Of a DNA stretch of 21,465 nt, positions 1-19,874 are shown in pieces. Made by a program: the position numbers and the translations under genes. Below the pieces are notes generated by a model. That model had not been told where the DNA came from. It worked only from the letters and a program-made list of their open reading frames with translations, and searched no databases. The stretch comes from a virus. How positions within the stretch are numbered: position 1 is the first letter of the stretch; each line of letters begins with the position of its first letter. The stretch covers positions 1 through 21,465 of the IMG/VR virus record IMGVR_UViG_3300047323_000042. One strand, 5' to 3'.

Positions 1-167
1 AAGACGATGTGGTCAAGGCCAATTATGAAGTGCCGCGCCGGATTCAGACGAAGCTCCACACCCTCAAGACATGGGGGAGAATCGAAAACCTAAAGGGGTT
101 CGTGTCTGAGGCGCTTGAGAAAGCGCTGGATCGAGAGATCGCCGCGGCCGAGCGGGAAGGGTACTGA
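1..167 (+). CDS. Ribbon-helix-helix DNA-binding protein, C-terminal part (5' end outside window)
   Basis: The frame is open from the left edge and ends in TGA at 165-167; the start lies outside the window. The visible 54 residues read as a basic beta strand (VKANYEVP), an amphipathic helix (RRIQTKLHTLKTWG) and a second helix (FVSEALEKALDREIAAAE). This is the layout of the ribbon-helix-helix (Arc/CopG/ParG) fold, in which the strand pairs in a dimer and contacts the DNA major groove. The stop overlaps the start of the next gene by one base (TGATG), so the two are probably translationally coupled. Small RHH proteins often act as centromere-binding partners of ParA, or as copy-number or transcription repressors. 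Which applies cannot be told here, because the upstream gene is missing. The fold call is moderate; the partition role is only a hypothesis. Confidence 0.6.
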   Translation, partial: DDVVKANYEVPRRIQTKLHTLKTWGRIENLKGFVSEALEKALDREIAAAEREGY

Positions 168-715
168 TGAACGATCAGCCGGAGTTGTGGGAAGAATTGA
201 AGGTCGAGAATCACTGGTTCCACGTCGTGCGCGCGATGATCCAGCGCGACAAGATCGCCGAAATGGGCGTATATGCGTGGGCGGTGTACTGCGTGCTCAA
301 AAGTTATGCCGCGCTCGATACGGGAAAATCCTATCCTGGGCGCGATGCGATAGCCAAGCACGTCGGAATCTCGCTGGATACGGTCGACAGGGCGCTGACA
401 AAGCTGGACGAGATGGGGATCGTTGCGCGAAGGAAACTCGGGCGAAGCAATTCGTATGAACTGACGGAGCAAATACCGATGACCGCGGCAAATGGCGAGA
501 TCGCAATGCACGGCGAGGCAAAGTACATACCGATGCAGTTTCAACAGGTTTTAGACCAGCTGAAGGCGTTCGCGGCGAGCGGGAGTATGCAGGGAGGTCT
601 AGAGGTCAAGATCGTCTTAAACGCCAATTTCCTGACTGGCTCGCATGCGACCGTCAACAACTACAACGCGCCGGCCGTGGTCGGAGTCGAAGTTACCCCC
701 AAGAAGTCAGACTGA
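167..715 (+). CDS. Winged-helix replication-type initiator / DNA-binding protein
   Basis: This 182-residue protein starts at ATG 167 with GGAAGG about 6 nt upstream. Residues about 25-100 look like a winged helix-turn-helix: a helical lead (YAWAVYCVLKSYAALDTG), then GRDAIAKHVGISLDTVDRAL as the HTH with its recognition helix, then LDEMGIVARRKLGRSNSYEL as the wing. This arrangement is common in phage and plasmid replication proteins (HTH_36/DnaD-like N-termini) and in some regulators. The C-terminal 80 residues have no motif I recognise. It is coupled to the RHH gene upstream and followed directly by an origin-like region with three palindromic repeats, which makes it the obvious candidate to bind them. 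A role purely in transcription cannot be excluded. HTH fold: fairly sure. Replication role: inferred from context. Confidence 0.65.
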   Translation: MNDQPELWEELKVENHWFHVVRAMIQRDKIAEMGVYAWAVYCVLKSYAALDTGKSYPGRDAIAKHVGISLDTVDRALTKLDEMGIVARRKLGRSNSYELTEQIPMTAANGEIAMHGEAKYIPMQFQQVLDQLKAFAASGSMQGGLEVKIVLNANFLTGSHATVNNYNAPAVVGVEVTPKKSD

Positions 716-740
716 GTTATCCCATCTAAAGACTTTAAGA

Positions 741-757
741 TATATAGAATCTATATA
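741..757. promoter_or_regulatory. 17-bp AT-rich perfect palindrome
   Basis: TATATAGA-A-TCTATATA is a perfect inverted repeat around a single central base. It ends 2 nt before the first GC-rich repeat. It could be a repressor operator, an easily melted element of the origin, or both. It also contains -10-like TATA hexamers on each strand, so it could overlap divergent promoters. Confidence 0.5.
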
Positions 758-759
758 GT

Positions 760-840
760 GCCGCTGGCCAGCGGCGTATTCGCCTTGATAAGCCGCTCAC
801 CAGCGGCGTATCGAAAAATGATAGGCCGCTCGCCAGCGGC
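760..840. repeat. Three iteron-like palindromic repeats, GCCGCTNNCCAGCGGC
   Basis: Copies lie at 760-775, 792-807 and 825-840. Fourteen of 16 positions are identical in all three, and the first copy is a perfect 16-bp palindrome. Start-to-start spacing is 32 and 33 bp, close to three helical turns, so bound proteins would sit on one face of the DNA. Conservation extends outward: an ATA(A/G) or similar triplet precedes each copy, and GTAT follows the first two. No U-tract follows any copy, which argues against terminators. The likely binder is the winged-helix or RHH protein encoded upstream. Confidence 0.75.
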
Positions 841-850
841 TAATGAAATG

Positions 851-859
851 TTGTCCACA
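851..859 (+). promoter_or_regulatory. DnaA-box-like nonamer (TTGTCCACA)
   Basis: This differs at one position from the E. coli-type DnaA box TTATCCACA. It sits 11 bp after the last palindromic repeat and 14 bp (start to start) before a perfect box, in the same orientation. Confidence 0.55.
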
Positions 860-864
860 GCAAG

Positions 865-873
865 TTATCCACA
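865..873 (+). promoter_or_regulatory. DnaA box (TTATCCACA)
   Basis: This is an exact match to the consensus DnaA box TTATCCACA and lies beside a second, one-mismatch box in the same orientation. Its placement directly after the repeat array supports recruitment of host DnaA to this origin. Confidence 0.7.
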
Positions 874-929
874 GAAACGGTGCGTAACCCTGTGCGCAAT
901 TTCAGAACGATAACTTCTAATTCGCAAAC

Positions 930-1130
930 ATGAAATCTTGGACCTACGCCGAATTGACCGAAAAGACCGAGCGCGAGATTCGGGACGCCCTCAACGGTCC
1001 CGACAAGGAACTGGGGCGCACGTGGGCATGGGGCGCTTACATGCTGTGGCACAGCTTGACCTCTTTCGAGCAAGGATGGACCCAAGAGGATGACAATCGC
1101 CTAGCGAACACGATCCGGGAATTTCGATAA
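930..1130 (+). CDS. Small hypothetical protein (66 aa)
   Basis: This ORF encodes a 66-residue soluble protein with four tryptophans and many charged residues (KSWTYAELTEKTEREIRDAL at the start). It is predicted mostly helical, with no membrane segment and no motif I recognise. No good Shine-Dalgarno sequence precedes the ATG. In favour of a real gene are a balanced composition and a position that fills the gap between the origin and the methyltransferase on the same strand, ending 8 nt before the next start. It may be a small accessory or regulatory protein of the replication region; function unknown. Confidence 0.5.
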   Translation: MKSWTYAELTEKTEREIRDALNGPDKELGRTWAWGAYMLWHSLTSFEQGWTQEDDNRLANTIREFR

Positions 1131-1138
1131 ACTCTATT

Positions 1139-2143
1139 ATGTCAACTAGTAAAATGAAAATCCCTTTTGGCCTTCATCGACGCATCCCCCAGGCGCGACG
1201 TGTTCTTGAACTTCTGGCACAGACCACCAGCGAGCGCGATGCCGCTAGACGCGAGATTCAATCGCTAAACGCTACCCTCACGCAGACGCTTCAGAGGAAC
1301 GGAATCCTTGAGCGCGCTTTGGTGGAGCGCGTCAGCCAACAGCACCCGCTGCTATACGGAAACACTGACGCTCAAATGGGCGAAAGGGCAAAACGCATTT
1401 GGTCGCTGTTGCGCCCGATGGATGCAGTCGGAAAGCGTCTTATTCGCAAAGGTCGCCCACATGATGGCGGATATGCGATGATCGACCACGGCCTACAAGG
1501 TGCGATAGCTTATTCGCTCGGCATCAACGACGATGTATCGTGGGATCTGGACATGGCAGCAATGGGATGCCAGATCTACCAGTATGACCACACAATTGAC
1601 CGCCTGCCGGTAGACCATCCGAATTTCCACTGGTTCAAAAAGGGGATCGCGGCGTCGCCGTCGGCTGATGGAATGCTTGACCGCCTTGATGATTTGATTG
1701 CGCACAACGGACACGCGGGCCGATCAGACTTGATCTTGAAGATGGATATAGAGGGCTTTGAATGGGAGGTTTTCGAAGCAATGGCCCCGCAGATGCTCGC
1801 GCAGTTCTCGCAGATCACTTTGGAAGCTCACTCGCTTGCGCTCGCAGATGCCCCGCTACACAAGAAGATCGTCGGCGCACTATCAAAGCTGTACGCAGTT
1901 CATCAACCAGTGCATGTCCATGCGAACAATCATGGCTATGTCGGCGTGATCGGCGGGGTGATGATCCCTGACACGATGGAAGTCACGTATGTGCGCCGCG
2001 CCGATCACTGCTTCATGCCATGCGCGCGAATGTTCCCGAGCGAAATTGATATGGCGTGCCGGCCCGATGTGCCTGATTTTTTCCTTGGCGCACTGGGCGC
2101 TCTCCCCGAGCCAGAGCTAGAGGAGAGCCGCGCCAGTGCCTAG
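1139..2143 (+). CDS. FkbM/METTL24-like SAM-dependent methyltransferase with N-terminal coiled coil
   Basis: The first about 70 residues form a heptad-like coiled coil (RRVLELLAQTTSERDAARRE onward). From about residue 80 the protein resembles the Methyltransf_22/FkbM type: a DGGY motif near 110, YSLGINDDVSWD as the SAM-binding strand and loop, an acidic strand end (IYQYDHTID), and the hallmark LILKMDIEGFEWEVF, followed by ITLEAH. Such enzymes use SAM to O-methylate sugars or small molecules; the substrate here is unknown. It is not needed for a virion and sits between the origin and the convergent late operon, so it is a likely cargo (moron) gene, perhaps altering surface glycans. Sampled lines are 52-53% G+C, below the late genes. 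Its stop overlaps the stop of the gene on the opposite strand by two bases. Methyltransferase: confident. Substrate and role: unknown. Confidence 0.8.
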   Translation: MSTSKMKIPFGLHRRIPQARRVLELLAQTTSERDAARREIQSLNATLTQTLQRNGILERALVERVSQQHPLLYGNTDAQMGERAKRIWSLLRPMDAVGKRLIRKGRPHDGGYAMIDHGLQGAIAYSLGINDDVSWDLDMAAMGCQIYQYDHTIDRLPVDHPNFHWFKKGIAASPSADGMLDRLDDLIAHNGHAGRSDLILKMDIEGFEWEVFEAMAPQMLAQFSQITLEAHSLALADAPLHKKIVGALSKLYAVHQPVHVHANNHGYVGVIGGVMIPDTMEVTYVRRADHCFMPCARMFPSEIDMACRPDVPDFFLGALGALPEPELEESRASA

Positions 2144-2673
2144 CGCGCCCGACGGGCGCGGATGACGCCGCCCGCCTGACAGGTGCTAGTCGTGAAATTC
2201 CCCTGAGCCACCAGATACACGGTCGTCGTGGCCGACAGGCTAATCCGCACCACTGGCGTGACCACATTGCCGCCAGCACCAGCAGATTGCGTCCCTGCGA
2301 TATTGGCGAACTGATAGGTCACTAAGGTTGCCGAAGTCGAGCTGACGCCGGCGACTTGAGCGGACATCACGGTCGTCCCTGCCGTATTGAAAATGACCAT
2401 GCCGGAAACGTCCCAATCACCCGCAGTCAGGGAAATCGAAGTGACGTTGGCGGGCGTTCCCGAGGTCAGGCTAACGGTGGTATTAGCTACGGTCGAACTA
2501 ACAAATTCACCGACGCGCCCCGCGCTGGCACTGTCATTGGTCGTTGTTCCGACGATGCTTGAGGCGTTAATGTTGCCCCAGGATGGCGCAGTAGATGAGC
2601 CGGTAGAAGTCAATACCTGCCCGCTGGTCGATCCGGTCGGGTCGATAAGTTGCGGAGGCAATTTAGTTGTCAT
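2140..2673 (-). CDS. Small phage tail appendage / fibre-like protein
   Basis: This 177-residue protein is rich in Ser, Thr, Val, Ala and Gly. Its N-terminal module (PPQLIDPTGSTSGQVLTSTG) is typical of short phage fibre proteins. A beta-rich C-terminal half of alternating strands (VTSISLTAGDWDVSGMVIF, TVYLVAQGNF) resembles the jelly-roll tips of phage appendages. It lacks a signal peptide or membrane segment. The ATG at 2673 has AAGGG 8 nt upstream. It is the last gene of the late array, after the lysis genes, a position often taken by exchangeable receptor-binding or decoration proteins. The assignment rests on style and position, not on a catalytic motif. Confidence 0.55.
   Translation of the reverse strand: MTTKLPPQLIDPTGSTSGQVLTSTGSSTAPSWGNINASSIVGTTTNDSASAGRVGEFVSSTVANTTVSLTSGTPANVTSISLTAGDWDVSGMVIFNTAGTTVMSAQVAGVSSTSATLVTYQFANIAGTQSAGAGGNVVTPVVRISLSATTTVYLVAQGNFTTSTCQAGGVIRARRAR
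2144..2160. other. GC-rich hairpin at the convergent gene junction
   Basis: CGCGCCC-GAC-GGGCGCG is a perfect 7-bp inverted repeat starting directly after the methyltransferase stop codon and lying inside the last codons of the - strand appendage gene. No T-tract follows on either strand, so intrinsic termination is doubtful. It might slow convergent transcription or form the 3' end of the methyltransferase mRNA. Confidence 0.3.
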
Positions 2674-2718
2674 GCGACATCCCTTGCTGATTGATTGAAT
2701 TGGGGATCGGTGGAGCGA

Positions 2719-3261
2719 TCAGCCCCGACTGTCAGACGGCACGCGCGGATCGGCCTGCATCTTTCCGCGGAAGAACGAAGCGACACCGAGCACGGCGCCG
2801 ATCGTCAGCGTCATGTCGGTTGAGAGCGAGACGGGCTGCACATGAAAGAGCGGCAGCAGGAACAGCGACATGATGTAAAAGCCGAACGTGAAGCCGATAA
2901 ACGGGCGCCAGGTATAGGACGGCCAGTGATCCGACTTCGCTTCGCTCTGCATCGTCACGTTGACGTCGCCGATGGCGTCAGAACCGGCTTTAATGCTCGC
3001 CTGTTCGGTCGCCGCGCTGATCTGCGCCATCTGAACCTTGAAGTCGTTGTCAGCCTTCTGAAGCGCTGCAATCGCATCCGGCGAGAGACCCGCCTGAATC
3101 GCCTGCGTCACCTGGTCCGACGTGCCGTCCTGATGCCCGAGCACGGCGCCGCTCACCGCGCGCAACGCAGCGCCCGCCACCATGCCCGCCGGGCCGCCGA
3201 CGACAGACAGCGCCGTCGCCAACGTCGGCGCGACGCCGCCTAGAATCGATTTCCAGTCCAT
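2719..3261 (-). CDS. Holin-like membrane protein (GTA_holin_3TM type)
   Basis: This 180-residue membrane protein has a hydrophobic, Gly/Ala-rich N-terminal segment (about 8-40), a soluble amphipathic middle rich in Gln, Ala and Lys, then WRPFIGFTFGFYIMSLFLLP (about 119-140) and a last membrane segment at about 148-166. The TWRP motif ahead of a transmembrane helix is typical of the three-TM holin family first described in gene transfer agents. It starts 1 nt after the TGA of the endolysin gene, with AAGGGG about 6 nt before the ATG, so both are made from one message. It would make the inner-membrane lesion that releases the lysozyme. Family call good; its role relative to the one-TM protein upstream (holin versus antiholin) is open. 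Confidence 0.75.
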   Translation of the reverse strand: MDWKSILGGVAPTLATALSVVGGPAGMVAGAALRAVSGAVLGHQDGTSDQVTQAIQAGLSPDAIAALQKADNDFKVQMAQISAATEQASIKAGSDAIGDVNVTMQSEAKSDHWPSYTWRPFIGFTFGFYIMSLFLLPLFHVQPVSLSTDMTLTIGAVLGVASFFRGKMQADPRVPSDSRG

Positions 3262-8014: not shown

Positions 8015-9553
8015 TTAGAACGCTCCCAAGGCTTTCATTGCCTGATAATCCTTCGTCCACTGCTGCAAATGGCCCGATGCCTTCAGCTTCTGCATGGCTG
8101 CCTGCTGATCCTCTGGCGAGCCAAGCGATCGGATATACGAAACGTCCGGGTTGAACGACTGATTCCACTTCGCCTCAAACTGCGGCAGCGCAGACGTGTT
8201 GTTACCGTTCTGCGCGAGGAAATTGGTAGTTGCTTGCTGGCGATCGAGAACCGCCTGTTGCAACCCCTTGACGTGGTTGATCGACTCAAGCAACGCCGGC
8301 CCGTTCATGTTGTTCGGGTCGGGCTGCCCCGCCTTTGCCGCCGCCAGTCGCGAATCGCTTCCAGACAGGCCAAGCGATGCCGCCGCTTGATCTGCTGCGC
8401 TGTTCAGGTAGTTGGCGAGAAGCTGATTGTTCTTCACCGCATCTGAGCCAGCCTGAATGCCGAACGTGTTGAGCAGCGCCGGTACATTGAGCGCCGCATT
8501 GGCGCCCTTGCCGGCCATCGTTCCCTTGAGTGCCTGAGCCGCCAAGTCGTATGTCTGCATGAGCGGCTTGGCCTGCTGCGCTGCTTGCTGAAGGCTCGCT
8601 ACGCGCTTGGCGCCATCATCCGCGATGCCGCTTGCTCCCGGCGGAAGGCCGGTCGCCACGAAGTGCGGCTGCCCCACGCCCGGTGCTTGTCCCGGCATCG
8701 GAGCGGCTTGACCCGCGCCTTGCTGGTTTGCACCGGTCGGCAGCGGCGGGATGTTGATCTGCGGCGTACCGGCGCCACTGACGCCAACGCCCCACATCTC
8801 GCCGCGAGGAACGACGCCAGGCGTGTTGCCAGGGCCCATGACGCCGACAGGAGCCGTTGCGGATTCAGGCGACAACTGGTTCTGAATCGTCGTGCCGACA
8901 ATGCCCGGATTCGAAATCGGGTTCGTGTCGATGTATTGCTTCGTCGCGCCGTTGTCGACCTGCGTAGGCTTCGGCGTGATCGAGCCGAGCTGCGCGCCCA
9001 CGTCTTGGAACGAAGCCAGCTTTTGCTGGAACCACGGCTTGAACTGAGCTGGATCATCCGGCATCTGCGCGATCGTCGCCTTCACCATCTGCGGGCTTAC
9101 GTGCCCTTGATTGATGGCGTCTCCGGCAATTTGCAGGAATTTCCCCTGCGCATCCGGCTTGCTAGGGTCGACGGTCGCGAATTGCTGCGTCAGAAATTTC
9201 AGGCTGTCGCCGTAGTTCTGGCGCTGCTCGTTGTTGAGCGCCACATCGCCGCGCGCAAGCGTCTGCTGCTGCTGCTTCTGCGTGTTGATGCCTTGCACCA
9301 CCTCGCCGAGCTTGAAGCCCGCTGCGGGGTTCTGGCTAATCAGCGCCATCAGTTTGTTGTTGTCGACCTGCCCCGTCGTCGGGTCGGTCGCCTGCTGATA
9401 GGCGGCAGAGATCGCGCGGTTCGCGTCGAGCCCTTGCTGTGCGGCCAAGCCGTTCGCGTTATAGGCGCGATATTGCGCGACCTGCAGCGCCTGCTGCAGC
9501 GGGTTGAATTCAGGCGACTTCGCCTGCAATGCGATCGATGTGTCGAGTGGCAT
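8015..9553 (-). CDS. Ejection (internal virion) protein, P22 gp20-like by position
   Basis: This 512-residue Gln/Ala-rich protein lacks membrane segments. Residues 1-190 are helical (NPLQQALQVAQYRAYNANGL onward). Residues about 200-310 are a Pro/Gly/Asn-rich flexible linker, and a helical C-terminal half ends in LQQWTKDYQAMKALGAF. The linker and high Gln content suit a protein that must unfold and leave through the portal. It is the middle gene of the ejection trio and abuts the next gene as TAAATG. It is named by analogy to the P22 order gp7-gp20-gp16; sequence alone gives no catalytic clue. Confidence 0.65.
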   Translation of the reverse strand: MPLDTSIALQAKSPEFNPLQQALQVAQYRAYNANGLAAQQGLDANRAISAAYQQATDPTTGQVDNNKLMALISQNPAAGFKLGEVVQGINTQKQQQQTLARGDVALNNEQRQNYGDSLKFLTQQFATVDPSKPDAQGKFLQIAGDAINQGHVSPQMVKATIAQMPDDPAQFKPWFQQKLASFQDVGAQLGSITPKPTQVDNGATKQYIDTNPISNPGIVGTTIQNQLSPESATAPVGVMGPGNTPGVVPRGEMWGVGVSGAGTPQINIPPLPTGANQQGAGQAAPMPGQAPGVGQPHFVATGLPPGASGIADDGAKRVASLQQAAQQAKPLMQTYDLAAQALKGTMAGKGANAALNVPALLNTFGIQAGSDAVKNNQLLANYLNSAADQAAASLGLSGSDSRLAAAKAGQPDPNNMNGPALLESINHVKGLQQAVLDRQQATTNFLAQNGNNTSALPQFEAKWNQSFNPDVSYIRSLGSPEDQQAAMQKLKASGHLQQWTKDYQAMKALGAF

Positions 9554-9555
9554 CG

Positions 9556-10344
9556 TTAGACCGTGAAGTAGTTCGGGTTGCCTGCCGGCGTCGTGCCGTA
9601 AGTCGGGTTTGCTGCGGCCGCCGCGGGCGTCGCATTGTTCTGCATCAGCCCATACGTGAACGCCGTATTGCCGACACTCCCAAGCCCGCTGCTGAGTGCG
9701 TTCGCGCTGCCGACTGTGCCGGAAGCAGCAGCGTTGGCGCCGTTTGTGAGCGTGTTACCGATGCTGCCGGCAGTTGCCGCGCCAAGTGAGCCGTTCGTCG
9801 CCGCGGCGTTCTGGCCGTTGCTGACGATGCCCTGAAGCCGGTTGACGTTGTTCGACGCGCTGCTGTAGTTCGTGTTGAACGTCTGAAGCGCGCGGTTATA
9901 AACGTCGTTGTATGTCGAGTCGGCAAGGCCGGTCGCATAGTTTGCCGCGCCCTTGAGTGCAGCGCCCGATGTGCCGAGTCCACGCGCCGCAGCGCCGTTC
10001 TGAGTCGCCTTCAGCCCCTGATTGAGCGTGAACTGATAACCAGGCGTGTTCTGTGCCTGCTGCAGAGTCGGCGCCGAGAACTGCTGCGTCAGCATCGGGT
10101 TCGACAGCGCATCCTTGAGCGGGTTGATGTAGCTCTTCCCCAAGTCCATGTAGGGCTGGAGATTTTCTTGAGTCTGTTCCCACTGCGCTTCCTGCATCGC
10201 CGCCGCATTGCCTGCGGCTGCCGCCTGTTGTGCTGCGGCGCTTTTCGAGGCGCTGGCTGATATGAGCGAACCGCCGACGGCGCCTGCCGCAGCAAGGCCG
10301 CCACCAATGACGGCCGCCGTAGCTGCCGAAATACCAAAAGACAT
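9556..10344 (-). CDS. DNA transfer / ejection protein, P22 gp7-like
   Basis: This 262-residue protein starts with a glycine-zipper membrane segment (about 8-30, AAVIGGGLAAAGAVGGSLIS). An Ala/Gln helix follows, then a conserved-looking central block (PGYQFTLNQGLKATQNGAAA, RGLGTSGAALKGAANYATGL, DVYNRALQTF). The last 100 residues are Asn/Gly/Ala-rich and low in complexity. The PGYQF ... RGLGTSG ... GAANYATGLA pattern is a familiar one in podovirus DNA transfer proteins of GC-rich hosts. It would enter the cell envelope first or early in DNA ejection. The ATG at 10344 has AAAGGG 8 nt upstream. It is the first of the three ejection genes. Confidence 0.75.
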   Translation of the reverse strand: MSFGISAATAAVIGGGLAAAGAVGGSLISASASKSAAAQQAAAAGNAAAMQEAQWEQTQENLQPYMDLGKSYINPLKDALSNPMLTQQFSAPTLQQAQNTPGYQFTLNQGLKATQNGAAARGLGTSGAALKGAANYATGLADSTYNDVYNRALQTFNTNYSSASNNVNRLQGIVSNGQNAAATNGSLGAATAGSIGNTLTNGANAAASGTVGSANALSSGLGSVGNTAFTYGLMQNNATPAAAAANPTYGTTPAGNPNYFTV

Positions 10345-16523: not shown

Positions 16524-18638
16524 TTATTGAGCGGGCAAAGAAAAACCCGCACTAGGCGGGCTCGGTTGTTGTTGCATCTGCTGCATGGGGTCAGGCGGTG
16601 GAGCGCCGCCATCTGGCGCGCCGGTCTGCATCATCTGCATGACGACTTGCGTTGCAACATGCGCGATCACCTGCGGGTCGATCTCGGGCAGCGCAGCAAT
16701 GCGCCGGGTTTCGGCGTCGTATGCTTTGATGTTCGTTTCCTGCTGATCCTGTCCCTGCTGCGCCTCTTGAAGCTGCTGCGACAGGTGCTCGATCATCTGG
16801 CCCATGTGCGCCATCTTCTGCTGCATGTCCTGCTCTTGCGGGCTCGGACCTTCGCCCAAGATCGCAGGCGGGATCGTGCGATGCAGACGTTCTGCCACTT
16901 CCTCGGCCATCGGGAAGTCAGCAGCCTTGAACAGCAGGTCGCCGGCAACCTTCATGAGCTCCTGATCCTGGCCCATGATCTGAGTCAGCGCGTTGAATGC
17001 TTCCTGACGGCGCGTTTCGTAGTTCGGGCCGACCTCGACAGTCACGTCGTAACGCCCGATGCCGGGGTTGAAGATCAGTTGCACGTCTGAGCCGCGCTCC
17101 TTCTCAGGCGGCGCCGGCTGGCCGTCAGGCGTACCGACCGGATGCGGCTGGTCCGGATCGAACTGCGCGAACGTCTCTGTGCCGTCCTCGCCGATGATGC
17201 GAATCACTCGCGCCGTGTCGTAAATCTTCGGGATCAGGTCAATCAGCACGCGTCCAGTGAAGCGAATGGCGCGCGCAACGTTGTCAATAAAGTGATACGT
17301 CGCACGATCGCCCTGCCGCTGGCGCGCCTGGATCGCCACGCCTGCTTGCGCGTTCGACTGCTGGCCGAACTGCTCCTGATACTGGCCCGACGCCATCATC
17401 AGTTCCTGCTGCGCCGTTTGCATGCCTTGCAGGTACGCAGAAGCGCCTACAGGAGGCTGCTCGCGCTGCGGACGCTCAATGGGCTGCCCGTCCTCTCGCA
17501 GCCCGTTGTAGGGCAGATACGGCAGGTTGTCCTTGTTCGCGTTCGCCCACTCGGATTCGAATCCCTCGAATGCTTCGACGGGGCCGACGAAAGGCGTCTT
17601 CGTCTGAAGCGCGATGTACTCGACCTGTGCGCTGCTCATGTAGTTATACATGCGCTGCGCGTCTTTCATGCTGCGCGTGTGACCCTTGCGCTCGATCTTG
17701 CCGTCGATGACGATCTCTTCGCCGATCACGCGCACGATCGGGACATAACGCCCCGCCCACGGCTTTTCGTCGATGACCGTATCGCCAGCGATCAGATACC
17801 AGGTGATCTGCGGCGAGCTCACCGGGCGCTTCTGCACGCTCGGATCGTTCTCAATGACCTTGCGCTCTGCCGGATCTTGCACGTCTGACAGCATCATCGG
17901 GCCGTTGACCGGATGATTGATGAGCGTGTCAGTCTTCGTCGTCTTGCGGAAGTACTCGCAGACGCGGATCTTGTCCTTCGACAGCCAGGCGCTGCCGGTC
18001 GTGTCGTCACCAAACGCCACGCTGCGCGCTTCCTCGCCCGGATAGGTCGCCTCGAACTCAGTCTTCGACATGTCTTCGAAGACAAAGCCGTACTTGGCAT
18101 CCGAGCCGTCGGCCGACTCGATGTCGCAGTCGAGATAGACCGTCAGCGGGTTCTTGACGCGGCGCAGGAATATCTCTTGGTCAAAAGAGCCGTCGTGCGC
18201 GTACTCACACACCACACGCCAATACCCGATGCCGGCCTGTACAGCAAACTCCGTCGCCGTGTCGTAGACGATCTCGGCGTGCGAGTTGTACTCGATATGA
18301 CGAACAATCCCGTCAAGAATCTTCGCGATTTCAATATCAGCGTCACCGTCGACCGGCAGCGTCTTGACCGACGGCTTGTTCTGTTTCGCATCGTTGATGA
18401 TCTGCAGATTGTGCTGGCGCGTCTTGTTGATCGTCAGGCAGGGACGGCTGTCGCCATCGCGCGCATTGCGGATCTGGTCGGGCCATTGCCAGCCGTTGTC
18501 ACTGTCGCCATTGGCAAACTTCAGATCTTCGACGAAGCGCTTGCGGAACTCGCTTTCGTGTTCCTCGCAGCGTGCGAAACGCTCTTTCGCCTCAGCGACA
18601 ATCTTTGCCTTCGGGTCTTCCTGCTTTTTGCGTGCCAT
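16524..18638 (-). CDS. Portal protein, P22 gp1-like
   Basis: This 704-residue protein (P22: 725) contains family features in order: an N-terminal helix (KAKIVAEAKERFARCEEHES), WPDQIRNAR and RPCLTINKTRQHNLQIINDA (about 50-90), a central stem/wing region (GIGYWRVVCEYAHDGSFDQE; RSMKDAQRMYNYMSSAQVEY) and the Gln-rich stretch with ARQRQGDRATYHFIDN. Then comes a long helical, Gln/Met/Pro-rich C-terminus resembling the P22 portal barrel. Twelve copies form the DNA entry channel that binds terminase and later the gp4-like adaptor. Its ATG abuts the terL stop (TAAATG). A terminator hairpin lies within its last codons. Confidence 0.92.
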   Translation of the reverse strand: MARKKQEDPKAKIVAEAKERFARCEEHESEFRKRFVEDLKFANGDSDNGWQWPDQIRNARDGDSRPCLTINKTRQHNLQIINDAKQNKPSVKTLPVDGDADIEIAKILDGIVRHIEYNSHAEIVYDTATEFAVQAGIGYWRVVCEYAHDGSFDQEIFLRRVKNPLTVYLDCDIESADGSDAKYGFVFEDMSKTEFEATYPGEEARSVAFGDDTTGSAWLSKDKIRVCEYFRKTTKTDTLINHPVNGPMMLSDVQDPAERKVIENDPSVQKRPVSSPQITWYLIAGDTVIDEKPWAGRYVPIVRVIGEEIVIDGKIERKGHTRSMKDAQRMYNYMSSAQVEYIALQTKTPFVGPVEAFEGFESEWANANKDNLPYLPYNGLREDGQPIERPQREQPPVGASAYLQGMQTAQQELMMASGQYQEQFGQQSNAQAGVAIQARQRQGDRATYHFIDNVARAIRFTGRVLIDLIPKIYDTARVIRIIGEDGTETFAQFDPDQPHPVGTPDGQPAPPEKERGSDVQLIFNPGIGRYDVTVEVGPNYETRRQEAFNALTQIMGQDQELMKVAGDLLFKAADFPMAEEVAERLHRTIPPAILGEGPSPQEQDMQQKMAHMGQMIEHLSQQLQEAQQGQDQQETNIKAYDAETRRIAALPEIDPQVIAHVATQVVMQMMQTGAPDGGAPPPDPMQQMQQQPSPPSAGFSLPAQ
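16541..16560 (-). terminator. Intrinsic terminator embedded in the 3' end of the portal gene
   Basis: On the - strand CCCGC-CTAGT-GCGGG (arms 16556-16560 and 16546-16550) is followed by TTTTTC. The hairpin is coding: it lies about 15 nt before the portal stop codon, so RNA polymerase would stop before completing the gene unless it reads through or ribosomes melt the hairpin. The stem is short (5 bp), so it is probably weak or attenuating. Confidence 0.6.
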
Positions 18639-19874
18639 TTATGCGAGCCAGCCGCCAGCACCGACAATCGTGCGACGGACAATAGGTTTCTGTGGTTTCG
18701 GAGCCTTGCCGGCGCGTCGTGCGCCCTCGCAGGCGTATCGCAGCGCGTCGATGACGTGGTTGTCCTTGTCTTCGAGCATCGGCAGGATGGCGCCCGTCAG
18801 CGGGTCTTCCTTGTACTTGTAGAGCGTGAGCTCGTCGATCAGGTGCTTGCAGCGCGGATGAACGATGATGTCGAACGACTTCAGGAACTCGACGCCCTCT
18901 TCCAGCGATTTCGCGCCCTTAATGGCCGGCCGGATCTTCGGAAAGCCGTTCTTCTGCATGTGGCTGATCGTCTCGGGTCGCGCTGAGTCAGCCGTGATCG
19001 GCCACTTCTCTGCGTCAGGCACGCCCATGAACAGTTCCGGCAAGTTCACGATCTCGCAGCCGACCATGTACGCCTCATAATCGACGTACAGCAGGTTCCC
19101 TTCGATGTCGCAGCGGATCAGCACGCTTGGATCGACAGAGAAGCCCCAATCCGCGCCGAGCCGGTGAATCGTTCCTGCCGGCCGTTCGAATTCCTCGATA
19201 CGCCAGTTCTTGAATACGCGCGCTTCGCTGTTCTGCTGGTATGCGCCAAGCCAGATGTGAGCGTATTTGTCCGGGTCGCGCCGCTTGTCGTACTCCATTT
19301 CAATGCGCAGCTCGTCAGGCAGCCACGGATTGTCCATGTAGTTCGCCTCGACCACGACAGCGCCAGGCGGCGGTTCGTCGCCCCGCAGCAGCGCATCCAC
19401 CGGGTCTGTCGACTCGCGCGGGTTCCATGAGAACCAAAGCTCCGACCCTGGCTTGCGGATCGTCGGGCGCAGCAGGTCAAGCGATCGCTGGCTCAGGCTC
19501 TGCGCTTCTTCCACCCATGCGATGTCGAAGCCTTCCAGCGACTTGATCGACTCCGCGGTATGGTTCTGCATGCCCTGAAACATAATCAGGCCGCCATGCG
19601 TCGACTTGATCTGCGCGTCTTGCACGTCGAAGTAGGCGCCGGCATTGAGCGCGGCAATCTTCCCTTCGAGCAGCTTCTTGACCGACTGCTTGAGCGACTT
19701 CTGAACCTCACGCACGCACACCGCATCGGTCTTTTCCATCACCGAGCGCTCAATCAACATCTCGCCGAAGAAGTGCGATTTACCCGAGCCCCGCCCGCCG
19801 TGCCCGCCCTTGTAGCGCGCGGGATCAAGCAGCGGGACGAATACCTTAGGCGTTTGAATTTGGAGGATTGACAA
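18639..19874 (-). CDS. terL: Terminase large subunit (PBSX/Terminase_3 type)
   Basis: This DNA-packaging ATPase and nuclease has 411 residues. The Walker A motif GGRGSGKS (about 26-33, K32) is followed by Walker B FDIAWVEEA (about 116-124) with the catalytic Glu and the coupling motif SWNP (about 149-152). The nuclease domain shows D242 (ADWGF), D296 (TADSARPE) and D386 (NHVIDALRY), the RNase H-like acidic triad. It docks on the portal and cuts concatemers; relatives package by headful. The only usable start is TTG at 19874: the codon before it is an in-frame TAA, and the next Met comes after Walker A. The first 29 nt overlap the putative small subunit gene, so coupled translation is likely. 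Confidence 0.93.
   Translation of the reverse strand: MSILQIQTPKVFVPLLDPARYKGGHGGRGSGKSHFFGEMLIERSVMEKTDAVCVREVQKSLKQSVKKLLEGKIAALNAGAYFDVQDAQIKSTHGGLIMFQGMQNHTAESIKSLEGFDIAWVEEAQSLSQRSLDLLRPTIRKPGSELWFSWNPRESTDPVDALLRGDEPPPGAVVVEANYMDNPWLPDELRIEMEYDKRRDPDKYAHIWLGAYQQNSEARVFKNWRIEEFERPAGTIHRLGADWGFSVDPSVLIRCDIEGNLLYVDYEAYMVGCEIVNLPELFMGVPDAEKWPITADSARPETISHMQKNGFPKIRPAIKGAKSLEEGVEFLKSFDIIVHPRCKHLIDELTLYKYKEDPLTGAILPMLEDKDNHVIDALRYACEGARRAGKAPKPQKPIVRRTIVGAGGWLA

Follow-up and report, generated by a model that had tools for sequence, protein, structure and literature searches.

The left end of the DNA fragment analysed here, a complete IMG/VR record of 21,465 bp referred to as the window, is best explained, with a probability of about 85%, as the right part of the plasmid-maintenance locus of a P22-like temperate phage, whose prophage would be kept as a low-copy plasmid and whose maintenance functions are organized in two exchangeable cassettes. 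Pieced together from the window and its relatives, the full locus would comprise, in this order, a conserved gene coding for a 149-aa protein, centromere/operator repeats, parA (type Ib, ParF-like), an RHH gene, rep, a set of palindromes and DnaA boxes. Segregation of the copies would depend on RHH dimers that occupy the repeats 5′ of parA and bring in ParA, and Rep dimers would bind the palindromes and, together with host DnaA, open the origin; exchange of the cassettes may help the element to escape incompatibility with resident relatives.

The RHH–Rep junction and the origin-like region

The first reading frame of the window (3–167, + strand) is open at the contig end and codes for the last 54 residues of a putative type I RHH centromere-binding protein, the 5′ part of the gene lying beyond the contig end. 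Its TGA stop codon (165–167) overlaps by one base the ATG (167) of the following gene (167–715, + strand), which encodes Rep, a 182-aa protein assigned as a winged-helix replication initiator on the basis of matches to HTH_36 in Pfam (E = 1.6e-8) and to several replication-initiation families in PHROG (E down to 1e-7), an AlphaFold model displaying a winged helix and, as described below, its exchange for recognised plasmid initiators. A fold search with Rep returned generic winged helices only and was not diagnostic. Among phage records, a DNA search with positions 1–3000 of the window gave no match, and a search with the Rep protein gave one distant match.

Downstream of rep lies an AT-rich inverted repeat, TATATAGAATCTATATA (741–757), a possible melting element judging from its sequence, which most RepA-family loci keep, some of them with substitutions. 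It is followed by three occurrences of the 16-bp palindrome GCCGCTNNCCAGCGGC, starting at 760, 792 and 825 (GCCGCTGGCCAGCGGC, 760–775; GCCGCTCACCAGCGGC, 792–807; GCCGCTCGCCAGCGGC, 825–840), which was found in none of 100 shuffles; these putative Rep-binding sites travel with Rep. They are followed by two DnaA boxes on the + strand, TTGTCCACA (851–859) and TTATCCACA (865–873), against 0.13 expected across the whole window; both boxes are conserved in RepA-family loci. The initial annotation had described an RHH end coupled by a one-base overlap to a winged-helix Rep and followed by an origin-like region, a description that was confirmed, with the RHH assignment as probable. As bounded by the exchange junctions between the relatives L064 and L005, the Rep-ori cassette spans 167–907 (+ strand), with its right border at approximately 907/908. 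By homology and by equivalence of slot, the window carries a plasmid-type initiator and origin.

A single cargo gene, which differs between relatives, adjoins the origin before the tail/structural block. It encodes an FkbM-type methyltransferase in the window (1139–2143) and acyltransferase-like proteins in L007 (10526–11605) and L155, and the products of these genes are possibly surface-modifying. On the other side of the window, genes for a P22-like portal protein (16524–18638, − strand; PF16510, E = 3.6e-174), in agreement with the P22-like structural genes reported initially, and for the terminase large subunit (18639–19874, − strand; PF04466, E = 4.3e-33) were identified, and the virion and packaging genes are collinear with those of the closed relative G001.

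Genome searches did not pinpoint a host. A genome scan with the Rep alignment retrieved only Pseudomonas contigs, in which Rep is about 35% identical and the preceding gene is different, and a portal search of 398 genomes from the phylum of these contigs gave a best identity of 41%. In the 12 large Pseudomonas contigs concerned (L033–L044), the Rep homologue follows a conserved 100-aa excisionase-like gene, and origin-like repeats are present in the contigs inspected; the arrangement resembles that of an integrative element equipped with a plasmid-type replicon.

Partition genes and the assignment of DNA sites

Because the window is the whole IMG/VR fragment, the sequence to the left of base 1 is not directly readable, and parA and its upstream repeats were read in relatives, the window holding neither. 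Scanning viral contigs with Rep yielded 15 relatives, several of which reach further upstream than the window, and the ParA-type ATPase anticipated in the initial annotation is found directly 5′ of the same RHH gene in those that extend that far (L003, L005 and L007). In L007, ParA (8788–9432), RHH (9425–9745) and Rep (9745–10293) are followed by the palindromes and DnaA boxes. The L007 ParA is a 214-aa protein with a deviant Walker A motif, KGGSGKTT, at residue 10 and no N-terminal HTH, and the best PDB matches of the window-type ParA are a 214-aa ParA (5u1g) and ParF (4dzz), with E about 1e-12. This ParA falls within the type Ib definition (~200–220 aa, KGGxGK[ST], no N-terminal HTH).

Profile searches of Pfam, PHROG and the PDB gave no significant match for the RHH protein, the window fragment included, and its assignment comes from the model of the full-length L007 relative (106 aa), in which a disordered N-terminal half or tail precedes an extended stretch and two helices, with pLDDT of about 84–95; this topology fits the flexible N-terminus and C-terminal β-α-α RHH of type Ib centromere-binding proteins. 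Among solved structures, ParD RHH antitoxins come closest in fold, and as these matches lack significance (E = 6.5) the RHH identity of the small protein coupled to Rep is probable rather than proven; the initial call is upheld by the model, with weak database support. At the nucleotide level, the RHH fragment of the window is 99.4% identical to the corresponding end of the intact gene in L064, and both are of the same ParA–RHH type.

Upstream of parA, CAAGGAAGG units recur in both orientations in type I loci (57, against 5.5 in shuffles), and types II and III have inverted repeats that are weaker than the type I array. Within the type I RHH frame of G001 (9496–9524), CAAGGAA units recur (at 9496, 9508 and 9516) and resemble those upstream of parA; they may reflect codon bias in a Lys/Glu-rich tail or a binding array.

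The features of type Ib partition are those described for ParF–ParG–parH of TP228 and δ–ω of pSM19035 (PMC5016525). As in those systems, a small ParA without an N-terminal HTH, a small putative RHH protein with a disordered N-terminal tail, and repeats of both orientations 5′ of parA are found here. In contrast, the RHH protein of the present locus is not recognisably related to ParG or ω, its gene is coupled by overlap to rep, and its binding to DNA is predicted.

It had been proposed initially that the RHH protein uses the three palindromes (760–840) as its centromere and that Rep uses other sites. The palindromes lie close by, RHH proteins are able to bind palindromes and the array is highly non-random, but it is unchanged in L006, under an RHH unrelated to that of the window, and has disappeared from L063 and L064, in which a different Rep follows a window-type RHH (99% identical at its end in L064) and three GTGCA-type palindromes are found instead. 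Distinct palindrome arrays accompany most of the other Rep families inspected, and a DnaA box is present in nearly all those listed; within RepA loci, the outer halves of the palindromes are kept and the sixth base varies by group. This reciprocal exchange rules out the palindromes as the RHH centromere, since they follow Rep, while the repeats upstream of parA follow RHH, and the proposal is left very improbable. The repeated sites and DnaA boxes adjoin rep and are co-inherited with it, the array upstream of parA moves together with RHH, and we infer that the centromere lies upstream of parA.

Independent exchange of the par and rep cassettes

Comparison of relatives reveals that either half of the locus has been replaced within conserved flanks. 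Between L005 and L006 the upstream gene is 90% identical, the Rep-ori region 97% and the downstream region 99.6%, whereas the par block is only 45% identical; between L005 and L064 the upstream gene (93%), par block (96%) and downstream region (99%) are conserved and the Rep-ori region falls to 46%, values of 45–46% nucleotide identity being the background level for unrelated DNA. The Rep-ori region of the window is correspondingly 97.2% identical to that of L006 and at background level relative to that of L064. In the par exchange, the replaced segment begins at the upstream gene's stop codon and ends where Rep starts; in the Rep exchange, it begins at that start and ends just beyond the DnaA boxes. 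In the closest set, Rep is 93–100% identical, yet three unrelated ParA–RHH pairs precede the Rep-origin unit. All four combinations of par I or par II with RepA or RepC were found (window, L006, L071 and L085; L071 carries par I with RepC and L085 par II with RepC), a pattern indicative of recombination between the cassettes. Gene content, gene order, the co-inheritance of proteins with their DNA sites and the exchange junctions can be read directly in the contigs, and at this level the locus is composed of two independently exchangeable cassettes, [repeats–parA–RHH] and [Rep–palindromes–DnaA boxes], with their boundary at the RHH/Rep junction. The clean swap of either half in near-identical relatives is as expected for a plasmid-living virus changing its maintenance type.

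The whole analysis rests on metagenome contigs, and every combination comes from metagenome assemblies, which could in principle have produced the swapped combinations as chimeras. This is extremely unlikely, because the combinations recur in diverged contigs and in separate samples: par II with RepA is present in diverged lineages (L004 and L006, 95.2% identical in par and 96.2% in Rep), par I with RepB in two samples (L063 and L064, which are identical) and par I with RepA in several samples. The junctions, moreover, lie at gene borders.

The range of types occupying the locus was sampled without par or rep bias by using as bait the gene for the 149-aa protein, which immediately precedes parA. 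A ParA was present in the slot in all 30 contigs in which this anchor gene is at least 63% identical, and these ParAs form six clusters sharing 23–39% identity; a further 25 contigs with a more distant anchor gene lack ParA. The gene of the 149-aa protein (L007 8243–8692 and 55 other contigs) persists in ParA-less relatives. The Rep proteins beside the slot ParAs or related ParAs belong to HTH_36, RepL, Rep_3 or TrfA: RepL occurs in the same slot in L145 (E = 5e-32), and Rep_3 (L121, 6e-33) and TrfA (L092, 9e-30) adjoin related ParAs in contigs that were found through their ParA rather than through the anchor gene.

This range bears on whether the winged-helix protein might act in transcriptional regulation or in lytic replication instead of as a plasmid initiator. 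Its fold is generic, it is small (182 aa), and G001 possesses another initiator/loader with DnaB: between 36378 and 39433, a repressor-like gene is divergent from genes for a DnaD-like helicase loader and DnaB. Such a role is nevertheless improbable, as recognised initiators fill the same slot or adjoin related ParAs, the Reps come with palindromes and DnaA boxes, and homologues follow ParA on circular plasmids. From the separate repressor/loader/DnaB block in G001, lytic-type replication appears to be distinct from the plasmid-type Rep.

Plasmids that have replication or partition sites in common are incompatible. The exchange might nonetheless be neutral phage mosaicism in which incompatibility has no role, given that recombination at gene boundaries is ubiquitous among phage genomes and that the cargo adjacent to the origin is variable too. 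This alternative has a real, if less than even, chance of being correct; against it, the units exchanged consist of a protein and its cognate sites, which are the two known incompatibility determinants, and several par types coexist in one sample (types I and III in 3300046543). Escape from incompatibility is a plausible reason for the exchange. At not quite even odds, the locus may be a dedicated slot in which allele series of par and rep, each with its own sites, are shuffled independently among near-isogenic phages, such that par type and rep type form a two-part compatibility identity deciding which relatives can share a cell.

Probable plasmid lifestyle and known phage-plasmids

Three relatives, G001 (39,691 bp), G002 (41,393 bp) and G015 (41,366 bp), are end-closed with exact 127-bp terminal direct repeats, such as closed circular assemblies should show, and all carry ParA. 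As headful-packaged P22-like genomes are circularly permuted, circular contigs alone are no proof of a plasmid state; the separate circular contig envisaged in the initial annotation has a counterpart in these relatives of ~40 kb, with an ambiguity inherent to headful phages. The reported lack of an integrase was confirmed for the window, where no tyrosine-integrase domain was found, and extends to the three closed relatives, which gave no match to PF00589 or PF00239, but not to G009.

An ordinary integrating prophage, with its integrase outside the window and par and rep as accessory genes, would agree with the presence of both ParA and a tyrosine recombinase in G009 and with PF00589 matches in five of 11 ParA-less relatives, which include both records found to be end-closed among those examined (G016 and G022). 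However, 14 of the 15 ParA-bearing records tested, the three end-closed ones among them, have no PF00589 match, although control genomes gave matches, and PF00239 was absent from the records tested, making an ordinary integrating prophage a very unlikely explanation. G009 (L145, L198–L200) is a ParA–RHH–RepL relative, and its tyrosine recombinase (about 38877–39785) may serve either for integration or for dimer resolution. Two circular plasmids, one from Acinetobacter baumannii (75 kb) and one from Polaromonas (104 kb), likewise carry ParA, a small protein and Rep in this order. The designation as a phage-plasmid maintenance module is well supported: of the original reading, the phage-plasmid itself is supported, with ParA, the cassette order and closed relatives without integrase in its favour, and the palindromic centromere is not. 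The prophage would reside in the cell as a plasmid, as far as genome organization can indicate.

In phage P1, as here, a plasmid replicon lies beside a partition operon and the lytic replication module is separate; P1 is a myovirus with partition proteins of type Ia (ParA/ParB), whereas the relative described here is P22-like with a DnaD-like loader and DnaB. Plasmids pRBH2-3 (Acinetobacter) and pA29BJ2 (Polaromonas) resemble the present locus in carrying ParA, a small protein and a homologous wHTH Rep, and Acinetobacter phage vB_IME_Ab2712 has Rep and ParA matches in a like order; these elements differ in their Rep (27–31% identity), larger size (75–104 kb) and repeats, and pA29BJ2, unlike the closed relatives, also lists an integrase. 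In cluster A mycobacteriophages, parABS/RepA replaces the integration cassette and the temperate phages are kept as plasmids, and diversification of parB to avoid incompatibility has been suggested (PMC7157519). Those phages combine one parA phamily with varying parB, whereas in the present P22-like phages whole [repeats–parA–RHH] units, with six ParA clusters, and [Rep-ori] units are exchanged separately. In the cryoconite phage group G10, with circular genomes of about 37–38 kb, integrase and ParA/ParB alternate among members (PMC4490671); in the part of that account considered here, the partners are of ParB type, toxin–antitoxin genes are present and no exchange at the level of cassettes is seen.

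Exchange of replication and partition functions among phage-plasmids to escape incompatibility has been suggested (PMC10879196), and the pattern described here fits such proposals. Thousands of IMG/VR contigs were classed as phage-plasmid-like in a 2026 survey (PMC13221032). Phage-plasmids and type Ib partition are already known; what is new is that near-isogenic phages exchange both cassettes cleanly and independently of each other. The pattern allowed the DNA sites of each protein to be assigned from sequence alone, and the element extends the phage-plasmids to a P22-like body plan. Since near-isogenic phages differ by a single cassette in both directions, they provide naturally matched pairs for separating incompatibility due to the centromere from that due to the replicon.
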